In this document: positions 27,564 to 30,268 of the stretch, piece after piece
Layout: the number at the start of each line of letters is the position of its first letter
Position numbering within the stretch: position 1 is the stretch's first letter
Assembly (NCBI GenBank): GCA_937899725.1
Contig: CALCCA010000007.1
Coordinates: 1 to 64,000 of the forward strand
Origin: an uncultured Halomicronema sp.
Lineage (GTDB): Bacteria > Cyanobacteriota > Cyanobacteriia > Phormidesmidales > Phormidesmidaceae
Length of the DNA: 64,000 bases
Reading direction: 5' to 3'
The notes under the pieces: model-generated
Seen by the model: the letters and a program-made list of their open reading frames with translations, nothing else
What the model was told of the DNA's origin: nothing
The model's database searches: none
Made by a program: the position numbers and the translations under genes

Positions 27564-27587
27564 CCTCAGCGGTTAGAGCCGCTGAGG
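27564..27587 (-). terminator. Hairpin at the 3' end of the glutaredoxin-AhpD gene
   Basis: CCTCAGCGG and CCGCTGAGG form a 9-bp perfect stem with a 6-base loop that overlaps the last codons and stop of the minus-strand gene. With the hairpin at 27368 it insulates two convergent genes. No U tract is seen. Confidence 0.5.
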
Positions 27588-29272
27588 CTGGTGGCGGTGG
27601 CGGTTGCTCTATCGGCTTCAAAGGCTGATGATGAGTGTCCTAACAGGCTAGTTATCGGCATCGGATAACGCAGCGCCAGTGACTGAGTCTCCAGACCGTG
27701 CTTATTCATAAAGAGTGCAACTTCAGACGTCATCTCAAGCTGAGCAATAGCCGTGAAACGTTGAATCATTGAACCCATCGAACATACGGTGATCAGATGA
27801 ACCAGCTCTACTGACTCGAACGTATCGATCACCCTTTGAATAAATCGACGTGGGGTGGTTAACGGCTGTTGCGCACTCACCCAAGCCAGCTGCAGCGCAG
27901 CTTTCTCCCGAGCGGTGAAGACACCGTCTGCTTCAACATGTCCGGTCGCTACGGCGAAGCAAAGGCGAATGCGATCGAGCACTGCTGTACTGTCTTTGCT
28001 GTTGTGATGAGCCATGAAAGCTTCATTGGCGGCCAGCGCATCGTGATCGCGAGTGATCGCAGAGACCCGCAGCATTAAATGCTTGAGTTCCGCAGAGAAC
28101 AGTGTGGGGGGGTGATCGCCCAACAGCTCGCCATAGAGATAGGCATGGTGCTTACGCACGGGTGCTGGAAATGTCTCGAACCAGATGGGCATCGTCCCAA
28201 ACTCGCGCTCGACATAAGCATCCAAGTCACCCACTGCCGCTTCATATTGACCCAACAGCTCCGGAATCGAAGGGCCACCTTCAGGAATGTCATAGTCCAG
28301 ATTAGAAGGATTAGCCGTGCCCGAGCCATGACGGCCAGCCTCTATGCCAACTTCCTGTCCTTGCTGCATCCAGTCGCCTTCAATCTCAACACTGGTCAGA
28401 TCGTTAAAGACATTGAGATAGCCCAAGGATGCCACGATCAGGCTGGTGCCCATAATGTTTTTGGCAGCATCCTGATTAGGCCCACGACTCTGCGGAGCCA
28501 ATTCATGAATGCGGGCAATCAGCTCAGGCGTGACCTGGTTCGTCGTCGCTGCAGCTGCCAACTCCGCTAGCGTCACCTCAAAGGGGCCAATGAGTCCGCC
28601 AAAATCACCTGCTTGGGCCGCCTTAAGCTGCTTGACTACGCCCACAGATTTGTTGTCTCCAGTGGCTGCAGTATGAACCTGACAATAGTTGCAGCCGTGA
28701 GCGTTAGAGGTCGCAAAACCGACTGCATACATCGCTGTGTCACCGATGATTTCCTTGGCCATTTTCACCGCCGACATATTGTGGCAGTACACAAACAGCT
28801 TGTACGCCTGAGGCCACTGGTGCATGTACTCAAAGCAGTTTGGCCAGAACCCAAAGAACTGCTGATAAAAGCGCAGTAGCGGCCAAGCTTCAGGATCGTC
28901 ATCGCGAGAGCCATCGCTAGCTGGAATATACTCGCGCAACAGCGTATCTTCTGCGCCGTGTGCGAGCTCAGCATCAGAGCGCGCGTCGAGGCCCAAATCA
29001 CGACCCGCTGTCGCCTGTGCTAGCTCAGTCAAGCGACCTGTGCGCTGAAGCGCGGCCAAATCTTCAGCGCCATTGATGTGATAGTCGCCAAAAAAGATTT
29101 GCGGCACGGTGGCAACGCCCGAAGCATAGATACTGCTATCGGCATTACGCTGGCTGGCCTTCACATCGTACTCAACATACGGTAGACCCGCTTCATCTAG
29201 CACCGCCTTAGCATTCGTACAGTAGGGGCATCCTGGCTTTGTAAAAATGCGAATCGTTGAATAGTCACTCAT
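27566..29272 (-). CDS. Glutaredoxin fused to AhpD/carboxymuconolactone decarboxylase-like domain
   Basis: 568 residues. Residues 1-82 are a complete dithiol glutaredoxin: IFTKPGCPYC with Cys15 and Cys18, and cis-Pro in TVPQIFF. A linker leads to an all-helical AhpD-like region (about 125-560) with the motif HGCNYCQVHTAATG (Cys194, Cys197, His200), the redox centre of alkylhydroperoxidase D. The second half contains a further related helical unit (about 370-520) without the Cys pair. The fusion suggests the glutaredoxin reduces the AhpD dithiol so that peroxide or another oxidant is removed with glutathione as donor. It is divergent from a TetR gene with three palindromes between them. Confidence 0.87.
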   Translation of the reverse strand: MSDYSTIRIFTKPGCPYCTNAKAVLDEAGLPYVEYDVKASQRNADSSIYASGVATVPQIFFGDYHINGAEDLAALQRTGRLTELAQATAGRDLGLDARSDAELAHGAEDTLLREYIPASDGSRDDDPEAWPLLRFYQQFFGFWPNCFEYMHQWPQAYKLFVYCHNMSAVKMAKEIIGDTAMYAVGFATSNAHGCNYCQVHTAATGDNKSVGVVKQLKAAQAGDFGGLIGPFEVTLAELAAAATTNQVTPELIARIHELAPQSRGPNQDAAKNIMGTSLIVASLGYLNVFNDLTSVEIEGDWMQQGQEVGIEAGRHGSGTANPSNLDYDIPEGGPSIPELLGQYEAAVGDLDAYVEREFGTMPIWFETFPAPVRKHHAYLYGELLGDHPPTLFSAELKHLMLRVSAITRDHDALAANEAFMAHHNSKDSTAVLDRIRLCFAVATGHVEADGVFTAREKAALQLAWVSAQQPLTTPRRFIQRVIDTFESVELVHLITVCSMGSMIQRFTAIAQLEMTSEVALFMNKHGLETQSLALRYPMPITSLLGHSSSAFEADRATATATSLSGSNR

Positions 29273-29315
29273 GGGTTTGAATCCTCTGTAATGGTTGTCT
29301 TAAATTAGATTTGCA

Positions 29316-29350
29316 GTTCAAAATGACCGAACCGTTCGGTCATTTTGAAC
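29316..29350. promoter_or_regulatory. Operator palindrome O1 (35 bp, perfect)
   Basis: GTTCAAAATGACCGAAC, one central base, then its exact complement: 17-bp arms with no mismatch. It lies 44 bases before the ATG of the glutaredoxin-AhpD gene. The core TGACCGAAC-n-GTTCGGTCA recurs twice nearer the TetR gene, as expected for the binding site of the divergent TetR regulator. Confidence 0.8.
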
Positions 29351-29528
29351 TATTGGTGTCACTCTAGGATGGTTGAGACTTGCCCATCTATATCAAAAGG
29401 TATAAAAGGCTTGTCGACTCCGGAAAGATAGCTTGCTTGAGCCTTGAAAAGCTTGCCTATACCTTCGAAGCAAGCCCCTTTCAGGCAAAGCAGTTTGCCC
29501 AGAAGGGGCGGGTGAGCACAATCAGAAA

Positions 29529-29547
29529 TGACCGAACAGTTCAGTCA
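29529..29547. promoter_or_regulatory. Operator palindrome O2
   Basis: TGACCGAACAGTTCAGTCA: arms of nine bases with one mismatch, the same core and single-base centre as O1. It is 67 bases before the TetR start codon, a position fit for controlling the TetR promoter. Confidence 0.75.
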
Positions 29548-29585
29548 TATTCAACTGATAACGCACATGGTAGAGTGTTGTCAAA

Positions 29586-29604
29586 TGACTAAACAGTTCA
29601 GTCA
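29586..29604. promoter_or_regulatory. Operator palindrome O3 next to the TetR ribosome site
   Basis: TGACTAAACAGTTCAGTCA, the third copy of the core, ends ten bases before the TetR ATG and runs into its AGGA ribosome-binding site. Binding here would block transcription of the regulator itself, so negative autoregulation is the simplest reading. Confidence 0.72.
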
Positions 29605-29614
29605 GGAAAACTAG

Positions 29615-30268
29615 ATGGCCATTCCGCGCACAATCGATATAACCAGCCCTAAGGCACAGCAAATTCTGGCGGGCGTGCGCAGCGTATTTCTAGAGATGGG
29701 ATATGAGGGAGCGAGTACTGACAAGCTTGCCCGTGCCGCAGGCGTATCAAAAGGAACGCTGTATAACTACTTTCCTGATAAGGAAACGCTTTTCATTGCC
29801 TTTGTTGAAGCCGAGTGTCGTAAACAGGCGGGACTAATCTTTACCGTTAAGAATCAATCTGCGGACATTGAAACAGTGCTGCGAGAAATCGCTCACAACT
29901 ATGTGAAAATCGGCCCGTCCTCTTTTGTTCAAGGAATCTATCGGCTAGCCCTTGCTGAGGCCACTCGCTTTCCAGCCTTAGCTCGTACTTTCTATGATTC
30001 TGGCCCAGACTTGGCCTCACGCCGGATGGTTCAGCTATTAGCGGGCGCGGTTGCTAAAGGCGAGCTAGAAATTGACGATTTGGATATGGCTACGCACCAG
30101 TTTGCTCAGCTTTGCAAGGCTGACCTATTTGAAAAATGTCTCTTCCAAGTCAAGCTTTCTGTAACTTCAGAAGAGATTGAGCGAATCGCCAACAGTGCCG
30201 TTGATGTTTTTCTACGGGCTTACCGTGCTAAAAAGCCCGTAGAATCCGCCACTAGTATCCGTGATTAG
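29615..30268 (+). CDS. TetR/AcrR family transcriptional regulator
   Basis: 217 residues. The N-terminal TetR DNA-binding domain (about 10-65) carries FLEMGYEGASTDKLARAAGV, KGTLYNYFPDKETLF and the following helix; the rest is an all-helical ligand/dimer domain without a recognised subfamily. TetR proteins bind palindromes as dimers and leave when a small ligand binds. Three matching palindromes lie upstream, one overlapping this gene's own ribosome site, so it probably represses itself and the divergent glutaredoxin-AhpD gene. An oxidised lipid or reactive electrophile is a plausible signal given the target, but that is inference. Confidence 0.92.
   Translation: MAIPRTIDITSPKAQQILAGVRSVFLEMGYEGASTDKLARAAGVSKGTLYNYFPDKETLFIAFVEAECRKQAGLIFTVKNQSADIETVLREIAHNYVKIGPSSFVQGIYRLALAEATRFPALARTFYDSGPDLASRRMVQLLAGAVAKGELEIDDLDMATHQFAQLCKADLFEKCLFQVKLSVTSEEIERIANSAVDVFLRAYRAKKPVESATSIRD

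Follow-up and report, generated by a model that had tools for sequence, protein, structure and literature searches.

Divergent, self-repressed switches of the TetR family are common, and the AhpD protein of Mycobacterium tuberculosis reduces organic peroxides. Among described regulators of the AefR/NalC type, NalC is released from DNA by pentachlorophenol (PMC3290565), and AefR binds phloretin, quercetin and apigenin, with flavonoids breaking its contact to DNA (PMC11915855). On the side of the enzymes, human Sestrin2 reduces alkyl hydroperoxides, cumene hydroperoxide included (PMC4674687), and the biosynthetic debrominase Bmp8 has been proposed to use cysteine-disulfide chemistry (reviewed in PMC5577590). 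Fused, sestrin-like AhpD dimers of prokaryotes are pointed out in a 2024 paper (PMC11429811), which also names an electronegative hinge with a DDYDY-like motif in the second lobe as a feature of the sestrin family; both of the examples given there with one dead lobe have lost the cysteines of the N-terminal lobe.

Here we describe a locus from an uncultured Halomicronema sp. that combines a putative switch of the first kind with an enzyme related to the second. The window, i.e., the whole stretch of DNA that was analysed, comprises 64,000 nucleotides.

Organization of the divergent locus

The locus consists of two divergent genes. On the minus strand (27566-29272) lies an open reading frame of 568 amino acids whose product, according to Pfam, a match to Bmp8 and the predicted fold, is a fusion of a glutaredoxin with a double AhpD-superfamily protein that is sestrin-like and Bmp8-like. 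On the plus strand (29615-30268) a gene of 217 codons encodes a putative TetR-family repressor with an AefR-like TetR_C_7 domain (Pfam). The distance between both start codons (29272 and 29615) leaves a gap of exactly 342 bases, the length given in the original prediction. None of the genes flanking the pair in the window is recognisable as a detoxification gene.

The gap contains three copies of the 19-bp pattern TGAC-YR-AAC-n-GTT-YR-GTCA: operator O1 (29324-29342, TGACCGAACCGTTCGGTCA) on the side of the fusion, O2 (29529-29547, TGACCGAACAGTTCAGTCA), and O3 (29586-29604, TGACTAAACAGTTCAGTCA), which abuts a ribosome-site-like AGGA upstream of the tetR ATG at 29615. The three copies, and the contact of the last one with the tetR ribosome site, had both been predicted. 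With up to two mismatches the pattern occurs three times in the window, and all three matches are O1 to O3; dinucleotide shuffles of the window yield a mean of 0.11 and at most one match. Together with the conservation described below, these counts rule out chance repeats, and, as judged from sequence, the three operators are real as DNA elements. O1 is embedded in a perfect palindrome (29315-29351, 18+1+18 with the core at 29324-29342) that measures 37 bp, not 35 bp as originally stated. In the entire 7.0-Mb genome only two further sites match the O1 sequence with up to three mismatches. Both fall within unrelated genes, and their number is no higher than in the control with the reversed pattern, so that a wider regulon in the same genome was rejected.

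A heptamer TTGTCAA (29578-29584, plus strand) is located immediately 5' of O3, and its TGTCAA part is found directly 5' of O3 in all eight genomes aligned (see below). It is a candidate for the -35 element of tetR, in which case O3 would overlie the remainder of the tetR promoter. A scan of the 342-bp gap for consensus sigma-70 promoters returned none, and an alternative extended -10 element (TGnTAnnnT) in the interval between O2 and O3 was discarded as it is not kept across all eight genomes. We also observe an imperfect 16-bp inverted repeat between O1 and O2 (29474-29509, GCCCCTTTCAGGCAAA/TTTGCCCAGAAGGGGC), which is not conserved in genomes G440 or G443.

The operators accompany the regulator

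The operators were compared across eight genomes, namely the window genome together with G440, G443, G447, G062, G464, G478 and G575. Among the 65 genomes of the order that were searched, G440 and G443 harbor the same TetR/fusion arrangement with three sites. The G440 proteins are 85% (TetR) and 82% (fusion) identical to those of the window, the G443 proteins 70% and 59%; in G443 two of the three sites deviate from the pattern by one mismatch. In an alignment of the three gaps the 19-bp cores are conserved, whereas the stretch that separates O1 from O2 is largely unconserved. The same holds for O1 itself: its core is kept in G440 and G443 and the outer arms of the 37-bp palindrome are not, for which reason the longer palindrome was discarded as the true site.

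In the remaining five genomes, the TetR orthologues (identity 58% in G447, 55% in G062, 54% in G464 and G478, 52% in G575) face genes other than the fusion. Nevertheless, a near-perfect O2-like site is present in each of them, so that this upstream site is kept in all eight genomes, and the spacing between O2 and O3 is confined to 57-60 bp throughout. O3 itself is clearly degenerate in four of them (G062, G464, G478, G575). Conversely, fusions that are accompanied by another regulator (G070 and G389) lack the motif in their vicinity. Since the sites are present with the TetR orthologue whatever its target, and absent at the fusions of G070 and G389, the sites travel with the regulator. The DNA part of the original prediction, which made conservation beside orthologues its test, is thus borne out by seven other genomes, two of them with the whole pair. 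Beside proteobacterial relatives of the TetR protein the search found no copy of the motif. The co-occurrence strongly suggests that O1 to O3 are used by the neighbouring TetR.

The predicted gradation of the sites is likewise visible. With a symmetric matrix, trained each time with the scored genome left out, the site nearest to the target scores highest in 7 of 7 loci scored (30.9-31.3 bits for O1 in the three fusion loci, 31.3-31.9 bits for O2 in the others). O3, at the start of tetR, scores lowest in six of the seven, the exception being G443, where O2 is lower. The gradient, a sequence score and not an affinity, fits the idea of the original prediction that the enzyme would be repressed more strongly than the regulator.

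An AefR-like regulator

The assignment to the TetR family, already made in the original prediction, agrees with Pfam: TetR_N matches with 55.0 bits (gathering score 24) and the C-terminal ligand domain TetR_C_7 (AefR-like) with 115.4 bits (gathering score 22; E 2e-33). As befits a member of the TetR_C_7 regulators, a conserved palindromic operator lies in its divergent gap. Among solved structures, 6g87/6g8h, 8wrf, NalC (8ke8) and 3bhq are the closest in sequence, and we take the first to be the flavonoid-responsive FrrA of Bradyrhizobium. Because the nearest known relatives NalC and AefR sense phenolics, it is plausible by analogy that this regulator does so as well.

All seven aligned TetR orthologues share the recognition-helix stretch VSKGT(L/I)YNYFPDK. 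A divergent TetR_C_7 paralogue in G399, 27-28% identical, has VAKRTIYQYFGGK at this position and a different palindrome pair, AACGAAACGGTTTTGTT and its near reverse complement, upstream of its own fusion. In this one case, recognition helix and site thus appear to co-vary. The two facing ACGAAACGGTTTTGTT-type sites of G399 (L066, 8108-8158), between the distant fusion and the paralogue, constitute a related, distinct operator.

Domains and active site of the fusion

The N-terminus of the fusion is a dithiol glutaredoxin. The domain (residues 6-86; 29015-29257, minus strand) matches PF00462 with 58.4 bits (gathering score 22.9, E 8e-16), residues 5-86 align with E. coli Grx3 (1fov) at Z 11.6, and the CPYC motif occupies residues 15-18 (29219-29230, minus strand). 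In this respect the enzyme is as predicted, with a complete CPYC glutaredoxin.

Pfam yields nothing significant for the other 480 residues, and its CMD family is not reached. A phmmer search of this part against the PDB retrieves Bmp8 with an E-value of 1.5e-4, the only match outside the glutaredoxin below 0.1 (the next PDB family follows at 0.64). The match covers a first AhpD-superfamily lobe (about residues 122-300; 28373-28909, minus strand), which contains the motif C194-N-Y196-C197-Q-V-H200 (28673-28693, minus strand). The Cys, Tyr, Cys and His of this C-x-Y-C-x-x-H motif are invariant in nine aligned members and stand in the same register in Bmp8. By motif and sequence similarity the lobe thus qualifies as Bmp8-type, and its fold, C-x-x-C and histidine (C194-C197-H200) place it in the AhpD/CMD superfamily. 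A second lobe of the superfamily (about residues 335-528; 27689-28270, minus strand) is recognised from the internal repeat and the alignment with Bmp8. A profile alignment of both lobes extends over 156 columns (E 3.8e-4, for a single comparison), and the second lobe has lost both catalytic cysteines.

An AlphaFold model of residues 95-530, computed from an alignment of nine natural sequences, has a pLDDT of 80 and a pTM of 0.86. The predicted structure aligns best with both lobes of human Sestrin2 (Z 20.4, 274 residues, rmsd 3.3, model residues 22-418), as a bilobal AhpD pseudo-dimer would, and with Bmp8 (Z 18.1, 171 residues, about 12% identity), whose chain can also be placed on the second lobe. 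All structure matches with Z above 5 belong to the AhpD superfamily, with further chains of the superfamily down to Z 7.4 and unrelated folds at Z 2.9 or less. By sequence, no match to the sestrin family (PA26) is found in Pfam up to E 1, nor is a sestrin chain listed by the sequence searches with cut-offs of E 1 and 5. The sequence match to Bmp8 and the predicted structure thus uphold the AhpD-like Cys-x-x-Cys motif of the original prediction, and the single domain envisaged there gives way to a duplicated, bilobal one.

Distribution and genomic context

The distribution of the fusion is patchy. In a sample of 386 cyanobacterial genomes, long matches occur only in G000 and G070; in the sample of 65 genomes of the order, searched at a different threshold, five genomes match the fusion at E 1e-6. 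Within the order of G070, matches are found in 5 of 245 genomes, and 398 genomes of the phylum around a Pelagibacteraceae centre contain two full-length fusions and many single-lobe relatives. A search of plasmids with the non-glutaredoxin part gave no match, and a scan of genome contigs with the whole fusion returned only matches to the glutaredoxin.

Different regulators face the fusion: TetR_C_7 proteins (the window type and another in G399), a TetR_C_30-type protein in G070, LysR-type proteins in G389 and the proteobacterium G631, and a CecR-type TetR in G1009. The LysR/fusion cassette is divergent in both the cyanobacterium G389 (L063, 5771-8450) and G631 (L112, 6628-9301). Both LysR proteins are 62% identical, which points to a likely horizontal transfer of the pair.

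The neighbourhoods were read by hand for a small set of loci chosen as matches, without a background rate. The window-type TetR faces FAD-dependent aromatic hydroxylases in G062 and G447. In G595, the fusion is shortly followed by a hydroxylase that shares 71% identity with its G062 counterpart, and is preceded by membrane-fusion and efflux-pump genes (the latter recognised by eye from the sequence). A FAD hydroxylase is also found beyond the fusion fragment of G443. In G458, the genes that flank the fusion encode a glutathione reductase-like protein, a glutathione transferase and a haloalkane dehalogenase (E 2.8e-86); the glutathione-reductase context stems from a CPHC sub-family of 27-30% identity and not from the closest orthologues. 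In the proteobacterium G1009, two Rieske/VanA aromatic oxygenases as well as the CecR-type TetR flank the fusion. These neighbourhoods point to the detoxification of aromatic compounds or xenobiotics. Of the peroxide or electrophile response originally proposed, the electrophile part would fit better, and the peroxide part finds no support in the neighbourhoods seen.

Several further arrangements were observed. In the proteobacterium G995 (L116, 3225-5458), a relative with a single lobe and the C-x-Y-C-x-x-H motif adjoins a FAD aromatic hydroxylase, such that the association with these hydroxylases extends beyond the fusion. In G464, G478 and G575 (L090-L092), the TetR orthologue faces a protein of 650 amino acids (641 in G575), and the HlyD_3 match of the G464 copy suggests an export target. 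A hydrophobic, membrane-like protein of 156-158 amino acids, with no match in Pfam, follows the fusion in G389 and G443 (L063, 8553-9023, and L065, 5264-5740). The G443 fusion itself is broken at two contig ends (L064, 1-1397, and L065, 5836-6349), whose pieces correspond to the N- and C-terminal parts; the flanks of both ends differ, which could reflect an insertion or a break in the assembly.

A putative module for aromatic electrophiles

Taken together, we consider it somewhat probable that the locus is a self-repressed module, inducible by phenolics or electrophiles, and that its enzyme reduces aromatic and perhaps halogenated toxicants at the expense of glutathione. A dimer of the AefR-like TetR would bind O1 and keep the fusion gene off, and binding at O2 and O3 would damp the expression of its own gene. 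Release of the regulator would be brought about by a small aromatic molecule, in the likeliest case a phenolic or related electrophile. The derepressed fusion would then act as a self-contained thiol-disulfide enzyme: the first lobe (C194/C197/H200) would reduce or dehalogenate the toxicant or one of its metabolites and thereby acquire a disulfide, which the attached CPYC glutaredoxin would re-reduce with glutathione, with glutathione reductase and NADPH restoring the latter. The second lobe may be a catalytically dead duplicate that completes the sestrin-like pseudo-dimer and possibly shapes the substrate pocket. We infer glutathione as the reductant from the fused CPYC domain and the glutathione reductase-like neighbour in the distant sub-family, and the substrate class from the neighbours and from Bmp8. 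Removal of halogens by the fusion is speculative. With an E-value of 1.5e-4 and 12% identity in the structure comparison, the match to Bmp8 is weak, and a shared, here predicted, fold shows no function. Tentatively, one may go further and see in the fusion a self-contained enzyme, free of cobalamin and flavin, that acts on aromatic toxicants as a reductive dehalogenase or a quinone reductase driven by glutathione. Its catalytic lobe, of the Bmp8 type, would sit in the sestrin-like pseudo-dimer and be recycled by the glutaredoxin of the same chain, and the gene would have passed between cyanobacteria and proteobacteria while the aromatic-sensing regulators beside it changed; we regard this specific version as rather improbable.

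The most serious alternative, unlikely in our estimate, is close to the original view of the locus: the fusion would be an alkyl-hydroperoxide reductase whose AhpD-type lobe receives its electrons from the glutaredoxin domain, and oxidative stress would be sensed by the TetR via Cys68 and Cys167. In line with such a role, the fusion matches both lobes of Sestrin2 and shares its order, the catalytic lobe preceding the other, and Sestrin2 is active on cumene hydroperoxide (PMC4674687). True peroxidases also occur in the AhpD superfamily, so that the fold cannot give the substrate class. The details of the active site argue differently. In the putative peroxidase YP_296737.1 (cited reference residues: relay E74, C86, Y88, C89, H93) the histidine follows the second cysteine at +4, whereas His200 is found at +3, as in Bmp8; and the position 12 residues before the first cysteine, occupied by the relay glutamate in the peroxidatic AhpD reference, is by sequence position Tyr182, with the reservation that other residues could serve. 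Histidine spacing and Tyr182 moderately favour a Bmp8-like over a classical AhpD chemistry. Furthermore, neither a peroxidase nor AhpC turned up among the scanned neighbours, a subset of all neighbours. The two TetR cysteines are kept in seven aligned orthologues and absent in three divergent paralogues, in line with a sensing role, but equivalents are present also in one proteobacterial relative, and the pair is therefore not specific to the circuit. A peroxide role of the module is thus less supported than the module for aromatic electrophiles.

As a second alternative, the fusion might be a biosynthetic or catabolic tailoring enzyme of a dedicated aromatic-metabolite pathway, with the TetR sensing a pathway intermediate. 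Aromatic oxygenases do adjoin relatives of the fusion, and Bmp8 acts in the biosynthesis of pentabromopseudilin (PMC5577590). However, in the window and in G440 the fusion faces the regulator with no pathway genes recognised alongside, and the patchy spread (2 long matches in 386 genomes, 5 genomes in 65) with swapped regulators looks like that of an accessory defence gene, which makes this alternative quite improbable. That the palindromes serve another regulator or are structural elements, and are not used by the neighbouring TetR, is very improbable: regulators beside the fusion are indeed often swapped (TetR_C_30-type in G070, LysR in G389 and G631), but the sites follow the TetR orthologue (G062, G447) and are missing near fusions with other regulators (G070, G389).

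Comparison with known systems

For the preferred reading, a module responding to aromatic electrophiles, the switch would be of the common autoregulated TetR type, for which a usable operator motif is now at hand. The unusual part is the enzyme, which joins a glutaredoxin to a bilobal AhpD protein with, according to the model, one intact and one dead lobe in the arrangement of human sestrins. We found no description of a glutaredoxin-sestrin-like fusion in the open-access literature with a limited set of search terms. Its substrate, once found, would show the role of such pseudo-dimers in bacteria, and also whether Bmp8-like dehalogenation serves defence outside natural-product clusters.

With respect to the regulator, the locus resembles nalC, where an inverted-repeat site is likewise located in the gap between the gene and its target (PMC3290565); the repeat half there, AGAACTGT, is unlike the motif of the window. 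The members of the AefR/NalC sub-family cited here regulate genes for efflux or for an antirepressor, and none of them a glutaredoxin fusion.

With respect to the enzyme, four comparisons apply. The hybrid peroxiredoxin-glutaredoxin of H. influenzae (Prx5, PDB 1nm3) also fuses a glutaredoxin to the thiol enzyme it recycles, but its peroxiredoxin fold is unrelated and the order of domains is reversed. In the parts of PMC11429811 considered here, no glutaredoxin fusion is found, and the dimers with one dead lobe described there have lost the cysteines of the opposite lobe. The tetrabromopyrrole debrominase Bmp8 (PDB 6ohi, 6ohj) has the same C-x-Y-C-x-x-H active site, yet consists of a single domain of 195 amino acids without glutaredoxin, whereas the domain is duplicated here with one copy inactive. 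Human Sestrin2, finally, has two AhpD-like lobes per chain, the first catalytic and the second without cysteines; it keeps only Cys125 of the dyad, whereas the fusion of the window keeps both cysteines and, unlike the sestrins, carries a glutaredoxin.
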